DNA from: Minwuia sp.
GTDB lineage: Bacteria > Pseudomonadota > Alphaproteobacteria > Minwuiales > Minwuiaceae
Assembly (NCBI GenBank): GCA_029210175.1
Contig: JARGPL010000019.1
Span: forward strand, 62,001 to 126,000
DNA length: 64,000 nucleotides
Reading direction: 5' to 3'
The notes under the pieces are model-generated. The model worked only from the letters and a program-made list of their open reading frames with translations, had not been told where the DNA came from and searched no databases. Below, one piece after another: positions 8,084-14,031 of the stretch. Each line of letters opens with the position of its first letter. The stretch's first letter is position 1. The position numbers were made by a program, and so were the translations under genes.

Positions 8084-9154
8084 TCAGGCCAACCCCGCCT
8101 TCTTCACGATATCCCAGCCCCATTTGGCGCGCTGTTCGGCATAGCCTGCGAACTTCCTGGCCGCATCGGAGCTGGCGTTGCCATCAAGCCCGCGCCGATA
8201 GACGCCCTGCACGATCGCGGCGGACCGGAACATCGTGTAGGCGATGTAGAATGGCCAGTTCTCGATCTCGCCCTGACCGGTCAGCTCCGAATACCGCTTC
8301 ACGAACTCGTCCTCGGTGGGAATGCCAATCTCCCTCGGGTCCGCCAGATGCGCAAAGCCGCCGTCAGCGGCATGTCCGTAGTATTCCTGGCAGCAATAGG
8401 CCAGGTCAGCCAGCGGGTGTCCCAGGGTCGACAGCTCCCAGTCCAGCACGGCAATGATCTTCGGCTCGGTCGGGTGCAGCACGCAGTTGCCGATGCGGTA
8501 GTCGCCATGAACAATCGCGACTTCATCAGCTTCCGGTGTGTTGGCCGGCAGCCATTCCATCAGCGCATCCATCTCCGGAATTTCTTCCGTCACGGACGCC
8601 ACATACTGCTTCGACCAGCGCGAGATCTGGCGGGAATAATAGTTGCCCGGCCGACCGAAATCGCCCAGTCCCACAGCTTCATGATCCACCATGTGCAGGG
8701 CTGCGAGAATGCGCAGCCAGTCATCATAAAGGGCGATGCGGTCCGCCTTGCTGAACGACGGCACGGCGGGGTCGATCAGCACCCGGCCCTCCATATGTTC
8801 CATGATGTAGAATGCCTGGCCGATGACAGCGTCATCCATGCAGAGGCAGTGGACAGCGGGGACAGGAACATCCGTGTTCTTCAGGGCTGCCATCACCTTG
8901 TATTCGCGGTCGACCTGATGGGCGGACTTCAGCAGCTCACCCGGCGGCTTCTTGCGCATGACATAGCGCTTGTTCGGTGTTTCAAGGATGTAGGTCGGGT
9001 TTGACATGCCCCCCTGAAACTGCCGCACGGTCAGCGGACCGGCAAAGCCATCCACGTTCTCGGCCATGTAGGCGGCAAGTGCACCATTGTCGATCTTGTG
9101 GTGCGGGCGAACATCGATGATCTCCACATCGCTTGCGTTGCTGCTCACGTTCAC
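8084..9154 (-). CDS. Phosphotransferase family protein (ACAD10/11-kinase-like)
   Basis: This is a kinase-fold protein of the aminoglycoside phosphotransferase (APH) superfamily, 356 residues long. It has the catalytic VHGDYRIGNCVLH loop (HGDxxxxN) and the metal-binding VLDWELSTLGHPLADLAY motif. Bacterial members next to acyl-CoA genes resemble the kinase half of mammalian ACAD10/ACAD11, which phosphorylates 4-hydroxyacyl-CoA. That role fits the neighbouring enoyl-CoA hydratase but is inference, and antibiotic resistance is unlikely. The start is a GTG preceded by GGGGAGA; a second GTG six bases later (9148) is an alternative. Confidence 0.9.
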   Translation of the reverse strand: MNVSSNASDVEIIDVRPHHKIDNGALAAYMAENVDGFAGPLTVRQFQGGMSNPTYILETPNKRYVMRKKPPGELLKSAHQVDREYKVMAALKNTDVPVPAVHCLCMDDAVIGQAFYIMEHMEGRVLIDPAVPSFSKADRIALYDDWLRILAALHMVDHEAVGLGDFGRPGNYYSRQISRWSKQYVASVTEEIPEMDALMEWLPANTPEADEVAIVHGDYRIGNCVLHPTEPKIIAVLDWELSTLGHPLADLAYCCQEYYGHAADGGFAHLADPREIGIPTEDEFVKRYSELTGQGEIENWPFYIAYTMFRSAAIVQGVYRRGLDGNASSDAARKFAGYAEQRAKWGWDIVKKAGLA

Positions 9155-9204: not shown

Positions 9205-10020
9205 TCAGCCGGACTTGTTCATGCGGTCCCAGTCGAACATCGACGGTTCCTTGGAAACGAAACGCCGCGCCGCTTCCTTGTGGAAATCGGTGGTGAACAG
9301 CAGCGGCTGTCCTGTCGCCTCTGCTGTCACGGTTTCCGCATAGGATGCTTCGAAGGTCTTGTTGACCGCCCGCTTGGTGACCGTCATGGCGGACTTCGAT
9401 CCGTGCGTCAGGCGCTCGGCAAAGGTCTCGACTTCACCCATCAGCGTGTCCGAAGGGTGAATGGCATAGACGATGCCCATGGACCTGGCTTCCTCCACAT
9501 CGATGGAACGACAGGTATACATCAGGTCCTTGGCGGCCTGCATGCCGACGATGCGCGGCAGGGTGTAGAGCAGACCAAGGTCGGGCATCAGGCCGATCCT
9601 GCCGAAGACGGAGCAGAAACGCGCCTTCGGGCTCGCGAAGACAAAGTCGGCCATCAGTGCAAAGGCGAAGCCCCCGCCGTAGGCCAGACCGTCAACAGCA
9701 GCAATCACCGGGCAATCCAGGTTCCAGAGCCGTTCCAGCCAGTTGTGCGTCGAATACATGCGCTGCTGTGCAACGGACGGATCCGCAAACTGGCGATTGG
9801 CCATGCCCTTGACGTCACCGCCAGCCGAGAACGCACGACCTTCGCCAGCGATGATCAGCACCTTCACGTCCGTGTTGCCCTGAACCTGATCCAGCATGGC
9901 AACGAAATCGCTGCGCAGATCCTCGGTCAGCGGATTCATGATATCGCCGCGGGTCATGGTGAAGCGCGCGATACCATCTTCGCCGATACTGAAATCGGTC
10001 GCCTTGAATTCGTGTGTCAT
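9205..10020 (-). CDS. Enoyl-CoA hydratase/isomerase family protein
   Basis: This is a crotonase-fold enzyme of 271 residues. The oxyanion-hole segments are visible as IAGEGRAFSAGGDVKGM and DGLAYGGGFAFALMADFVFAS. The reaction is most likely hydration of enoyl-CoA, but isomerase or hydrolase activity cannot be excluded. I used the ATG at 10020 (MTHEFKATDF) because GGGGAGGAC lies 6-12 bases upstream; the open frame extends much further but reads as non-coding there. The phosphotransferase gene begins 50 bp downstream on the same strand, so they probably share a transcript. Confidence 0.93.
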   Translation of the reverse strand: MTHEFKATDFSIGEDGIARFTMTRGDIMNPLTEDLRSDFVAMLDQVQGNTDVKVLIIAGEGRAFSAGGDVKGMANRQFADPSVAQQRMYSTHNWLERLWNLDCPVIAAVDGLAYGGGFAFALMADFVFASPKARFCSVFGRIGLMPDLGLLYTLPRIVGMQAAKDLMYTCRSIDVEEARSMGIVYAIHPSDTLMGEVETFAERLTHGSKSAMTVTKRAVNKTFEASYAETVTAEATGQPLLFTTDFHKEAARRFVSKEPSMFDWDRMNKSG

Positions 10021-10120: not shown

Positions 10121-11230
10121 ATGGCAGCAGGCATCAGCGAACCCTTGCAGAACCCGTATCGGGGCAGCGGGCTGCCCGCTGCGGTATTGGCGGATGGCAG
10201 CATGGCGGAGGGACAGGTTGTGGTGGATGCGACCGCCGCGCTGGCCCTCTTTGCGCTTTGCCCCGCCGCACAGCGGACCCCGCTGGTGGACCGCCCCGAT
10301 CTGGCGCGTGAACTCGGTATCGGTGCACTCTGGCTGAAGGATGAGCGGTCGCGGATGGGGCTGGGCAGTTTCAAGGCCCTGGGAGCGGCCTTTGCCATCG
10401 CGCGTGCCGCAGACCAGGCCGTACGCTCCGGCAGGTCGGACAGTCATCAGACGGCACTGAAGGGCGACACCTTCATCTGCGCCAGCGCCGGGAACCACGG
10501 GCTTTCGATGGCGGCCGGCGCGGCATTGTTCGGCGCCGCCGCCGCTGTTCTGCTGGCGGAAACCGTGGCGGAGAACTTTGCCGAACGGCTGCGGGCGAAG
10601 GGTGCCACCGTGATCCGCCATGGGAACACCTATGAGGAAAGCATGGCGGAGGCCATTCGCCTGGCGAAGCTGAAGGGCTGGAACCTGCTGTCTGACAGCA
10701 GCTGGGTCGGATACAGCGCCCCCGCCCGCGACGTGATGGAAGGATATCTGATCATGGGGTCGGAAGCAGCGGCGCAGGTGTCGGATGTCCCCACCCACAT
10801 ATTCCTGCAGGCCGGTGTCGGTGGCATGGCGGCAGCAGCAGCGGCCGCGGCCCGCAGTGCCTGGGGCGACGCCCCCCGGATCATCGTGGTCGAACCGGAT
10901 CGCGCGCCGGCCTTGCTCGAGAGCATTCGGGCGGGTCGCCCCGTGGTCACGTCAGGTGCCGTCTCGAACATGGGCAGGCTCGACTGCAAGGAACCGTCTC
11001 ACCTGGCCCTGAAGTATCTCGCCGAAGCGGCCGATCAGTTCATGCTGGTTTCCGATGCCGCAGCGCAGGATGCGACCGACTGGCTCGCGGGTTCGGGGAT
11101 CGCATCAAGTCCGTCCGGCACCGGCGGTGTCACGGGATTGCGGCTTGCTGCGGGGGCGCCGGACACCTTTGGCCTGGAAGCGGATTCACGCGTGCTGGTG
11201 ATCATCTCGGAAGGGGCCGCAGATGACTGA
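10121..11230 (+). CDS. PLP-dependent ammonia-lyase, diaminopropionate ammonia-lyase-like
   Basis: This is a fold-type II PLP enzyme of 369 residues. The Schiff-base lysine is Lys85 in GSFKALGAAFA, preceded by WLKDERSRMGLG. The phosphate and substrate loops are ASAGNHGLSMAAGA and SSPSGTGGVTGLR. The KDExxRxGLxSFKALG pattern is closer to 2,3-diaminopropionate ammonia-lyase than to plain threonine dehydratase. I chose the ATG at 10121, which has GGAG five bases upstream, over the ATG at 10094. It overlaps the next gene by 8 bp and heads a three-gene operon with an M24 hydrolase and a racemase-like protein. The substrate is unproven. Confidence 0.88.
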   Translation: MAAGISEPLQNPYRGSGLPAAVLADGSMAEGQVVVDATAALALFALCPAAQRTPLVDRPDLARELGIGALWLKDERSRMGLGSFKALGAAFAIARAADQAVRSGRSDSHQTALKGDTFICASAGNHGLSMAAGAALFGAAAAVLLAETVAENFAERLRAKGATVIRHGNTYEESMAEAIRLAKLKGWNLLSDSSWVGYSAPARDVMEGYLIMGSEAAAQVSDVPTHIFLQAGVGGMAAAAAAAARSAWGDAPRIIVVEPDRAPALLESIRAGRPVVTSGAVSNMGRLDCKEPSHLALKYLAEAADQFMLVSDAAAQDATDWLAGSGIASSPSGTGGVTGLRLAAGAPDTFGLEADSRVLVIISEGAADD

Positions 11231-12371
11231 ACAGGACTTTCCGCCGGAAGAATTCGCCGAACGGCTGGAACGCGCTCAACGGGCCATGCGAAATGTACAG
11301 ATCGATGCCCTGCTGCTGACCACCGAAGCCGATGTGCGCTATTTCACCGGCTTCCGCACGCTGTTCTGGCAGAGTCCGACCCGGCCCTGGTTCCTGATCG
11401 TTCCCGCGAACGATCGTCCCATCGCCATCATTCCGGAGATCGGGGCCGCCCTGATGGCCGCGACCTGGGTCGATGACATTCGCAGCTGGTCATCACCGCA
11501 CGCCACCGATGACGGCATCGGCATGCTGGCCGACGCCTTGCGCCCGTTCAGCCGTGTCGGCATGCCCATGGGGCGGGAAAGCAGCCTGCGCATGCCGCTG
11601 ATTGACCTGAAACGCCTCGAGAGCGCCCTGGACACCGTCGAACTGCTGGACTGCACCCCTCTGATGCGCGACCTGCGGGTGGTCAAGTCAGAGCGCGAGA
11701 TCGCGATCCTGCGTGCCATCTGTGGCATCGCCTCCGATGCCTTCGACCATGCTCCGGACCTGTTTCACATCGGACAGCCGTTGAGCGAAGCCTTCCGCGC
11801 GTTCCGCATCGATCTGCTGCGCTGTGGTGCCGACGATGTCCCCTACCTCGTCGGCGGTGCCGGGCAAGGGGGGTATCCGGACGTGATCTCTCCACCGGGT
11901 CCGACGCCGTTGCTGGCGGGCGATGTCCTGATGCTGGATACCGGCGCGACCCTGCAGGGATACCATTGCGACTTCGACCGGAATTATGCCTTCGATCATG
12001 CCGACGATGCTGCCCGGGCTGCTTACCGGACTCTCCATCGGGCAACGGACGCAGCCCTGGCCATTGCCCGACCGGGGGTGACGTGTGCCGAACTGCATGC
12101 CGCGATGCAGGCGGTGATTGGCCAGGACACCGGCGATGTCGGGCGCTATGGCCACGGCCTGGGCATGCAGCTGACCGAACATCCGTCGATCATCGGCTTC
12201 GACCAGACCGTCATGCAGCCCGGCATGGTGATGACGCTGGAGCCCAGCATGCAGATCGCGGAAGGCCGGATCATGGCGCATGAGGAAAACATGGTCATCC
12301 GGGATGGTGCACCGGAACTGCTGTCGCGGCGCGCGTCGCCGGAACTGCCGATCATCGGGGGTGGCGCATGA
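11223..12371 (+). CDS. M24 family peptidase-like hydrolase (Xaa-Pro peptidase/ectoine hydrolase type)
   Basis: This 382-residue protein has a creatinase-like N-terminal domain and a pita-bread metallohydrolase domain. The five metal ligands are visible: Asp239 (MLDTGA), Asp250 (CDFDRN), His311 (GHGLG), Glu340 (LEPSM) and Glu354 (AHEEN). The family includes Xaa-Pro dipeptidases, creatinase and the ectoine hydrolase DoeA. The neighbours are a PLP ammonia-lyase and an Asp/Glu-racemase-like protein, so hydrolysis of an amide or cyclic amidine to a diamino acid is a reasonable guess. It overlaps the preceding gene by 8 bp and the next by 4 bp. Confidence 0.9.
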   Translation: MTEQDFPPEEFAERLERAQRAMRNVQIDALLLTTEADVRYFTGFRTLFWQSPTRPWFLIVPANDRPIAIIPEIGAALMAATWVDDIRSWSSPHATDDGIGMLADALRPFSRVGMPMGRESSLRMPLIDLKRLESALDTVELLDCTPLMRDLRVVKSEREIAILRAICGIASDAFDHAPDLFHIGQPLSEAFRAFRIDLLRCGADDVPYLVGGAGQGGYPDVISPPGPTPLLAGDVLMLDTGATLQGYHCDFDRNYAFDHADDAARAAYRTLHRATDAALAIARPGVTCAELHAAMQAVIGQDTGDVGRYGHGLGMQLTEHPSIIGFDQTVMQPGMVMTLEPSMQIAEGRIMAHEENMVIRDGAPELLSRRASPELPIIGGGA

Positions 12372-13114
12372 CCCTGCCCTTCACGCTGGACGGCGGCGCG
12401 GGGGCCGCAGCGCGCATCGGACTGATCGTGCTGCAGAATGACGAGACCATGGAACCGGAACTGGCACCGCTGTTCAGCCAGCAGGGTATCGCGCTGTATC
12501 ACAGCCGCATCCCCAGCGCGCCTGAGGTCACGGCGGAGACCCTGATGACCATGAAGGCCGAACTGCCAGTCGTTGCCCGCCTGCTGCCTGCCGCACACCC
12601 TCTGAGCGTCGTCGGATACGGCTGTACGTCGGGTGCCACGATCATCGGGCAATCAGTCGTCAGCGATCTGATCCGGCAGGTTCATCCCGACGCCCTGACA
12701 ACGGACCCGATCACTGCCGTCGTTGCCGCCACAACGCGGCTCAACGTCAGGCGGATCGGGTTCATCACGCCCTATGTCGCGGCGGTTTCATCGGCCATGC
12801 GGGAACTTCTGCAAGGCCATGGGCTGGAGATTGCGGCGTTCGCATCCTTCGCCCAGGCGGAGGAGGCAACTGTCGCCCGAATAGCGCAACAAAGCCTGCT
12901 GAACGCCATCTGCGCACTGGCCGATGGCACCCCCGACATGGAAGCCGTGTTCGTGTCCTGTACCAACCTGCGCAGTCTCGGCATCATCGCGGAGGCCGAA
13001 CGCCGGATCGGAAAGCCGGTGCTCAGCAGCAACCTCGTGCTCGGCTGGCACATGCTGGCCCTTGCCGGGGCGCAGGCACCGGACGGGTCACCCGGGATGC
13101 TGTTGCAGCAGTGA
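12368..13114 (+). CDS. Asp/Glu racemase superfamily protein (maleate isomerase/EutA-like)
   Basis: This protein of 248 residues has the two-cysteine active-site plan of the superfamily: Cys86 in GYGCTSGA and Cys198 in VSCTNLRSLG. Known relatives are maleate cis-trans isomerase, arylmalonate decarboxylase and the EutA protein of hydroxyectoine utilisation clusters. The GCTSG and SCTNLR contexts fit the maleate isomerase/EutA side better than true amino acid racemases. It overlaps the M24 gene by 4 bp (ATGA) and closes the three-gene operon. The reaction is not known; isomerisation or racemisation of an acidic intermediate is likely. Confidence 0.88.
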   Translation: MTLPFTLDGGAGAAARIGLIVLQNDETMEPELAPLFSQQGIALYHSRIPSAPEVTAETLMTMKAELPVVARLLPAAHPLSVVGYGCTSGATIIGQSVVSDLIRQVHPDALTTDPITAVVAATTRLNVRRIGFITPYVAAVSSAMRELLQGHGLEIAAFASFAQAEEATVARIAQQSLLNAICALADGTPDMEAVFVSCTNLRSLGIIAEAERRIGKPVLSSNLVLGWHMLALAGAQAPDGSPGMLLQQ

Positions 13115-13188: not shown

Positions 13189-14031
13189 ATGCTTTCCACG
13201 ATGGGGCCACGCCGCAACATGCAACAGGTCAATATCGTCACCCTGAAATGGGGCGACCGCTATCCTGCGCTGTTCGTGAACAGGCTGCACCGGGCCGTTG
13301 CACGCAACCTGAACCGGCCCTTCCGCTTTCTGTGCTTCACGGAAGACCCAAGCGGGCTGGACTCGGGAATCGAGTCGTTCCCCCTGCCCGACATCCAGAT
13401 GCCGGAGAAGTTCTACTACACCCCCTGGATGAAGCTTGGCCTGTTCCAGACCGGCATGGGCGACATGGAGGGGGAATGCCTGTTCCTCGACCTTGATCTG
13501 CTGATCATCGACAACATCGATTGCTTCTTCGACTACCTGCCGGGCAAGCGGTGTATCATCCATAACTGGGTCCAGCGTCACCACGTGTTCAAGACACGCC
13601 CCGACGTTGGCAATTCGTCGGTATTTCGCTGGACCGCAGGCACGACCCAGTACATCGTCGACAAGTTCTATGCGGAACGTGACTGGGCGCTGGCCAACTT
13701 CCGCCCGCCACAGACCTATCTGACCTATGGCCTGGGTGAGAAGCACTACTGGCCAGCCGAATGGGCCACCAGCTTCAAGCGTCACGCCATACCGACATTC
13801 CCGCTGAACCTGTTCCAGACCCCCCGGATACCGCCAGGCACGCGCATTCTGGTGTTCCACGGCCTGCCTGACCCGGATCAGGCCCTGGTCGGGTTTCGCC
13901 CGGAGGGCAAGCCGCACCGCCAGACCCGTCCTGCCCCCTGGATCGAGGATTACTGGGATGACGGGCCGGAACCCGCCCCCCACACCGCTGCAGCCATCGG
14001 CGCGGCAGCGGATCCAAGCGGCCCTGCATGA
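13189..14031 (+). CDS. Putative glycosyltransferase
   Basis: This is a predicted cytoplasmic protein of up to 280 residues. The NIVTLKWGDRYPALFVNRLH start and the CLFLDLDLLIIDNID segment (a DxD-type motif for nucleotide-sugar and metal binding) resemble GT-A glycosyltransferases. Two starts are possible: ATG 13189, or ATG 13219 (MQQVNIVTLKW), where homology-like sequence begins. Neither has a strong ribosome-binding site. The stop overlaps the downstream FkbM methyltransferase by 4 bp, so the pair probably decorates a surface glycan or lipid. No flippase or polymerase genes are nearby. Confidence 0.75.
   Translation: MLSTMGPRRNMQQVNIVTLKWGDRYPALFVNRLHRAVARNLNRPFRFLCFTEDPSGLDSGIESFPLPDIQMPEKFYYTPWMKLGLFQTGMGDMEGECLFLDLDLLIIDNIDCFFDYLPGKRCIIHNWVQRHHVFKTRPDVGNSSVFRWTAGTTQYIVDKFYAERDWALANFRPPQTYLTYGLGEKHYWPAEWATSFKRHAIPTFPLNLFQTPRIPPGTRILVFHGLPDPDQALVGFRPEGKPHRQTRPAPWIEDYWDDGPEPAPHTAAAIGAAADPSGPA

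Follow-up and report, generated by a model that had tools for sequence, protein, structure and literature searches.

Three described systems come closest to the locus considered here. The eut cluster for the use of hydroxyectoine and ectoine in R. pomeroyi and S. meliloti (eutABCDE-asnC-ssd-atf) encodes a EutA-like racemase, a pyridoxal 5'-phosphate (PLP)-dependent lyase and an M24-family protein. In E. coli, the stretch ygeV-ygeW-ygeX-ygeY-hyuA-yqeA includes a lyase of the diaminopropionate ammonia-lyase (DpaL) superfamily, YgeX, together with an M20 hydrolase. Finally, racemic 2-aminothiazoline-4-carboxylate (ATC) is converted to L-cysteine by ATC racemase, ATC hydrolase and carbamoyl-cysteine amidohydrolase, a logic of racemase, C-N hydrolase and M20 amidohydrolase set out in passages of PMC10821248. 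Here, we describe a three-gene operon from Minwuia sp. (contig JARGPL010000019.1, positions 62,001 to 126,000; this whole stretch of 64,000 nucleotides is referred to as the window), which encodes a PLP-dependent lyase, an M24-family hydrolase and a EutA-like racemase. The three enzymes probably degrade an unusual nitrogen-rich amino acid derivative. A preliminary description of the window had recognised this operon, in which the lyase and M24 genes overlap by 8 bases and the M24 and racemase genes by 4 bases, all on the + strand; both the open reading frames and the Pfam matches uphold it.

The trio shares its three enzyme types with the eut cluster, and its relatives in other genomes add an AsnC regulator, an acyl-amino-acid deacylase and Ehu, TRAP or BCCT transporters, together with a physical and genomic association with eutD and eutE. 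The lyase of the trio, however, derives from the DpaL superfamily, whereas EutB is of the threonine dehydratase type; the M24 protein has a metal site, unlike EutD; and the operon contains no EutC. With ygeW-ygeX-ygeY of E. coli the trio has the DpaL-superfamily lyase in common, and many of its relatives also adjoin an M20 hydrolase, but the E. coli stretch contains no M24 or EutA-like gene. In comparison with the ATC route, the hydrolase is an M24 protein instead of ATC hydrolase, and the trio ends in a DpaL-type lyase. Among openly licensed papers, we found neither an earlier description nor a substrate of the trio, and the terms 'ammonia-lyase', 'diaminopropion', 'Xaa-Pro' and 'M24' do not appear in the main text of PMC13188858, which surveyed ectoine catabolism in 2026.

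To obtain related loci, we searched genome contigs with an M24 profile, which yielded at least 505 confirmed relatives, and analysed the best 80 of these with their neighbourhoods (usually 9 kb per side, less at contig ends, which cut some of the loci). Counts over these 80 loci therefore describe close relatives of the M24 protein of the window; judging by the titles of the records, they come mostly from marine-type Alphaproteobacteria. A racemase homologue was present at 71 of the 80 loci and a lyase homologue at 64, and all three genes lay within about 9 kb at 57. This co-occurrence, found by the search of other genomes that the preliminary description had proposed, argues that the grouping is not due to chance. 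The tandem order lyase-M24-racemase was kept at 41 loci, while at 14 all lyase genes were divergent. An AsnC-type regulator accompanied the M24 gene at 35 loci and an M20 amidohydrolase/deacylase at 32; the M20 protein of one locus scored 304.8 bits against the DoeB2 model (cut-off 550). Several types of transporter were found with the trio as well. Annotated examples include a plasmid of Aliiroseovarius crassostreae (AsnC, amidohydrolase, lyase, M24, racemase) and one of Rhodobacteraceae SC52 (AsnC, lyase, M24, racemase). The gene set occurs with Ehu-type transporters on plasmids of Roseovarius pelagicus and Aminobacter, with a TRAP transporter in Photobacterium, and with a BCCT transporter and RidA in Vibrio cortegadensis. 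RidA, which handles 2-aminoacrylate, adjoins dpaL at locus L196 (here and below, L and G numbers label loci and genomes, G000 being the window's own genome).

The family assignment of the lyase rests on several comparisons. Its Pfam match was PALP (183.6 bits), and its best NCBIfam match was PRK08206 (DpaL) with 265.9 bits (cut-off 276), with 162.2 bits for another DpaL model (cut-off 532.25), against 65.2 and 74.6 bits for the EutB models TIGR02991 (cut-off 413.35) and NF005680 (cut-off 413). The best sequence matches in the PDB were 5ygr and 4d9g, and a structure model with a predicted local distance difference test (pLDDT) score of 86.3 had its best fold match in 4d9i, the E. coli diaminopropionate ammonia lyase (template modelling score 0.83). 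In a maximum-likelihood tree of 73 rows, eight EutB sequences formed one clade with threonine dehydratases and IlvA (100/100), and a long branch parted this side from every DpaL-like protein; the window lyase sat in a DpaL-side branch (100/100). By NCBIfam match, PDB sequence, fold and tree, the lyase is thus a member of the DpaL superfamily and, by score and clade, not a EutB, in agreement with the preliminary description, which had called it nearer to DpaL than to EutB.

Within the DpaL side, the window lyase belongs to a 'short' clade of 24 rows with a long stem (100/100), of which 23 are labelled short and one solo; 'solo' is a putative label, taken from a search. The long-type trio lyases fall into one further clade in 17 of 20 cases (99/95), the remaining three grouping with YgeX, with a relative of the short clade and with a solo lyase. 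Taking E. coli YgeX as the reference, we compared the residues of 23 short and 36 DpaL sequences. The PLP lysine (K85 in the window lyase) is kept in all 23 short sequences, in which Asp120 is replaced by Ala and Arg150 by Phe throughout (A123 and F153) and Glu338 by Pro in 21 (P331). All 23 have Arg286 and Lys290, at positions where 32/36 and 33/36 DpaL sequences have Gly. According to the paper on the E. coli DpaL structure, Asp120 and Lys77 are reportedly the two bases of DpaL. With A123 at the Asp120 position and scores under the cut-offs, the window lyase is not a DpaL equivalog in the strict sense.

The 64 lyase-bearing loci contained a short lyase in 27 cases and a long one in 37, and never both. 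At L127 and L151, a short lyase is combined with an M24 protein and a racemase from the long-type branch, which we read from the sequences as a sign that one DpaL-type lyase has taken the place of another at the same step of the pathway. That two separate DpaL clades never occur together and yet are mixed in this way suggests that the trio pathway requires one step, a DpaL-type beta-elimination. Apart from the trio, a short-clade lyase gene stands with an M20 amidohydrolase and an AsnC gene on Phaeobacter inhibens plasmid pPGA1_262 (L074:7332-10035), with no M24 or racemase gene alongside, and 59 Phaeobacter plasmid records contain a match to the window lyase.

The M24 protein matched Peptidase_M24 (112.6 bits) and Creatinase_N (61.5 bits) in Pfam, and scored 69.9 bits against DoeA_2 (cut-off 575) and 34.8 bits against EutD (cut-off 613) in NCBIfam. 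Its metal site is complete, with the five ligands D239, D250, H311, E340 and E354 (or E355, the choice hinging on an alignment gap), and the same D, D, H, E, E set was found in 29/29 M24 sequences of the trio group. In EutD, which is metal-free, the ligands are replaced in 14/14 sequences, four of the positions carrying Glu, Pro, Tyr and Met/Ile. The window protein also lies outside the EutD clade (100/98) in the M24 tree, which gave long-branch warnings for YpdF and for a second M24 family, M24b. With its five ligands, it is a metallohydrolase of the prolidase/aminopeptidase P-like type, and score, tree and ligands together set it apart from EutD/DoeA (ectoine hydrolase). Its closest PDB sequence matches are prolidases and dipeptidases, which also come first among the fold matches of its model (pLDDT 75.5, moderate confidence), with EutD at rank 22, although the fold-match scores for prolidase and EutD lie close together. 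The M24b gene (L181:15590-16804, contig C3 of the window genome) stands in a cluster with EutD and a Pot-type transporter and has homologues in L037, L045, L151 and L308. In M24b, Asn and Ala replace the two metal Asp residues in 5/5 sequences; it therefore probably represents a distinct kind of amidine hydrolase that works without metal.

The third protein matched Amdase in Pfam (67.6 bits). Its best NCBIfam match was EutA (TIGR02990, 155.1 bits, cut-off 318), the arylmalonate decarboxylase model giving 68 bits (cut-off 225). Both catalytic-type cysteines of the two half-domains (C86 and C198 in the window) are present in 47/47 aligned rows, as in a two-cysteine isomerase of the Asp/Glu racemase type. 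In a tree with weak deep forks and a single canonical EutA, that of G048, the trio racemases (23 rows, 99/98) are separate from this EutA; on score and tree position, the protein is EutA-like without being EutA. Elsewhere, a EutA-like racemase adjoins a fused FAD (flavin adenine dinucleotide)-oxidoreductase/GcvT-like protein with matches to the sarcosine oxidase alpha family (L073:8977-12236), an arrangement that recurs in L131, L134 and L143 and hints at N-methylated substrates in some loci.

We then compared the distribution of the trio with that of ectoine catabolism. At L080, the operon reads lyase-M24-racemase-EutD-EutE (EutE 559 bits, cut-off 402.7), and L304 shows the same arrangement. 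At L086, eutE-eutD lies close to the trio on the opposite strand, and L305 (genome G170) contains the trio, a transporter, eutE, eutD, eutC and eutB within 20 kb. Four loci among the genome-contig set have a eut gene nearby, one of which, L121, amounts to only a 31% EutC match and was not used. In a survey of 387 alphaproteobacterial genomes, with at most four candidates scored per genome, this M24 type was found in 60 genomes and EutD in 57. EutD was present in 44/60 genomes with the M24 protein versus 13/327 without it (Fisher p 9e-33, ancestry ignored), and in 32/41 under a stricter M24 cut-off; 13 of the 18 families in the stricter set have a genome carrying both. The two genes lie within 20 kb of each other in 7 of the 44 genomes, with 0.68 expected at random, a count in which L080 and G191 almost certainly stem from one and the same assembly, both contigs being 57,745 long, and G270 belongs to the same genus. 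Among the co-location loci, a lyase was not detected in L306, L307, L308 or L309, nor a racemase in L307.

The window genome itself contains one EutD above the cut-off (675 bits), on another contig than the trio, where it is clustered with M24b and with genes for a Pot-type ABC transporter. Homologues of this transporter and of M24b occur near the trio in L037, L045, L127, L151 and L159, with identities of 64-75% for the binding protein, 66-68% for the ATPase and 54-57% for M24b. EutE was not found in G000 at E <= 1e-10, EutB did not come near its cut-off (219 bits vs 413.35) and EutC was not found (141 bits vs 471.65), while a DoeB2-like M20 protein (339 bits, cut-off 550) is located elsewhere in the genome. 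Twelve of 143 relatives examined carry the trio (G000-G006, G023, G030, G049, G114 and G124; split over contigs in G001), seven of them from one genus. EutD is present in all twelve; EutE was not found in nine (E <= 1e-10), and EutB and EutC did not come near their cut-offs in six, G000 being in both groups. Since EutB and EutC coexist with the trio in G049, G170 and others, the trio is, by gene content, neither a plain replacement for EutBC nor dependent on them. The preliminary description had stated that deacetylase, transporter and AsnC-type genes are missing, which is correct for the window but does not extend to the relatives, nor, for the transporter, to the rest of the genome. Of the readings considered, the best fit is its suggestion that a cyclic or N-acyl diamino acid is degraded by a separate route, in that the enzymes are separate; the partners found in the relatives and the EutD with its ABC transporter in the window genome nevertheless link the route to ectoine catabolism.

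We assign an even chance to the trio forming the centre of a catabolic module that operates alongside ectoine use. The module would act on a beta-substituted alanine derivatised as an N-acyl compound or a cyclic amidine; the beta-substituted alanine is suggested by the DpaL-type lyase placed at the end of the pathway. The sequences establish the order and families of the genes, the catalytic residues, the recurrence of the set and its genomic link with EutD/EutE and a Pot-type ABC transporter, and from there we infer the substrate, the order of the steps and the products. An ectoine-like zwitterion of this kind, most likely derived from 2,3-diaminopropionate, would be imported, and the M24 enzyme, a dinuclear-metal hydrolase unlike EutD, would cleave a C-N bond, assisted by an M20 deacylase in other genomes. 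The EutA-like enzyme would invert the alpha carbon with its two cysteines, so that both enantiomers become the form that the lyase accepts. Finally, the DpaL-derived lyase would remove the beta substituent, and the resulting enamine would hydrolyse to ammonia and either pyruvate or a related oxo acid.

Two loci support the comparison with the ATC-to-cysteine route. On S. meliloti pSymA (L077, 8857-11550), the gene for a EutA-like protein (205.5 bits with the EutA model) immediately precedes one annotated as L-2-aminothiazoline-4-carboxylate hydrolase, and an M20 enzyme of the carbamoylase type (465.9 bits with the hydantoinase/carbamoylase model) is also encoded there. On Aminobacter pSR3 (L076, 7947-12449), the order racemase-M24-M20 is followed by a cystathionine beta-lyase (559.4 bits, cut-off 500). 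The EutA-like gene of the former locus is a candidate ATC racemase gene; in the latter, amino acid transporter genes precede the set, which is possibly a sulfur version of the module. By analogy, an N-acylated or cyclic-amidine form of 2,3-diaminopropionate would be the nitrogen counterpart of the ATC substrate. A narrower and rather improbable proposal is that marine bacteria meet a natural 2-substituted imidazoline-4-carboxylate (a cyclised N-acyl-2,3-diaminopropionate), with the operon as the core of its catabolism: racemase, ring or amide hydrolase(s) and the re-modelled DpaL lyase would yield pyruvate and ammonia, in parallel to the thiazoline-to-cysteine route. DHMICA, a five-membered ectoine analogue, is described as synthetic in passages of PMC6890836 and PMC5924519; a natural source is therefore hypothetical, and we grade the imidazoline proposal below the general one.

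Several observations weigh against a diaminopropionate-type module tied to ectoine use. Sixteen of the 60 genomes with this M24 type have no EutD, so that the module does not depend on it, and the co-occurrence of the two may stem partly from shared marine ecology and ancestry. In the window and in the operons of the same genus, no M20, AsnC or transporter gene is adjacent. The short lyase, lacking Asp120, Arg150 and Glu338 and having gained Arg286 and Lys290, may not accept diaminopropionate itself. In addition, the racemase is also found beside long lyases, which mostly keep Asp120, and the idea that it merely compensates for the lost base is weakened accordingly. Alternatively, the trio could form a second branch for 5-hydroxyectoine. 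Ring opening would fall to EutD, deacetylation to the M24 protein in the role of EutE, and epimerisation to the EutA-like protein, after which the DpaL-derived lyase would act instead of EutB and eliminate the 3-hydroxyl group from hydroxy-diaminobutyrate. This is the substrate with a beta leaving group that we could name within ectoine chemistry. Passages of PMC8739950 state that the activities of EutA, EutB and EutC are still unknown; because of this, and because several trio genomes lack EutB, EutC and EutE in the survey above while all twelve have EutD, such a branch is quite possible, although we lean clearly against it. The trio would be redundant beside eutB, eutC, eutD and eutE in G170 and beside EutE in G191 and G270, the long-type trio lyases mostly retain the DpaL signature, and the genomes without EutD count against this branch too, as does the origin of seven of the twelve trio genomes in one genus.

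General salvage of peptides or D-amino acids is an unlikely explanation. Here, the M24 protein would be an ordinary dipeptidase, the racemase would interconvert free amino acids, and the lyase would deaminate D/L-serine-like or N-methylated diaminopropionate residues (of the beta-N-methylamino-L-alanine, BMAA, type). The complete metal ligands and the closeness of the M24 model to prolidases and dipeptidases, by fold and by PDB sequence, agree with this, but the very strong coupling to one lyase type, the racemase and EutD does not, nor do the flanking transporters of ectoine, compatible-solute or polyamine types and the DoeB2-like M20 partners. That the three proteins merely represent divergent branches of the eutA, eutB and eutD/doeA families is highly improbable. 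In NCBIfam, the racemase does match EutA best, and the M24 protein and the lyase have DoeA_2 and EutB, respectively, among their hits; every score, however, is far under its curated cut-off, EutB and EutD form separate and fully supported clades, and the metal site is present in 29/29 M24 proteins of the trio versus 0/14 EutD. Curated models and trees thus led us to reject membership of the trio in eutA, eutB and eutD, and the placement of all three proteins inside the eut/doe clades, which the preliminary description had named as the outcome that would refute it, was not found.

The coordinates of the operon and its neighbours are given in Table 1. The lyase frame opens mechanically at 9896, and its start was placed further downstream because homologues have a similar length (369 amino acids in the window and 372 at the same-genus locus L036); this comparison and that of the upstream neighbours rest on simple custom gene calling. 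The two divergent genes that adjoin the operon encode an enoyl-CoA hydratase and an APH-type phosphotransferase; in G002 and G003, the phosphotransferase has a counterpart of 90% identity upstream of the trio. Homologues of this hydratase and of the MFS transporter and alpha/beta-hydrolase of the window were looked for near the trio in G002 and G003 and not found, and the three are therefore not counted in the unit. Right behind the operon lies a gene for a 280-amino-acid protein with no Pfam match at E <= 0.001, and the product of the gene after it matches FkbM methyltransferase below the threshold.

Table 1. Positions in the window of the three operon genes and of adjoining genes.
Feature	Position	Strand	Evidence
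PLP-dependent (fold type II) lyase, 'short' clade of the DpaL superfamily	10121..11230	+	NCBIfam, tree, residues, fold match
M24-family (prolidase/creatinase fold) hydrolase	11223..12371	+	Pfam, NCBIfam, ligand columns, tree, fold matches
EutA-like protein, Asp/Glu racemase / arylmalonate decarboxylase / maleate isomerase group	12368..13114	+	NCBIfam, Pfam Amdase, tree
APH-type phosphotransferase	8084..9154		
Enoyl-CoA hydratase	9205..10020		
280-amino-acid protein	13189..14031		

The short lyases constitute a well-defined subfamily without one of the active-site Asp residues of DpaL, which annotation pipelines call 'diaminopropionate ammonia-lyase' or just 'PLP-dependent enzyme'. In the sea, ectoines serve as nutrients rich in nitrogen. 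A widespread parallel module that is tied to EutD and built on the chemistry of diaminopropionate lyases would point to one of two things: an ectoine-like nutrient that has so far gone unrecognised, or a second branch of hydroxyectoine use. Carriers of the trio include the culturable Leisingera, Shimia, Roseibium, Stappia and Kiloniella, in which both options can be tested.

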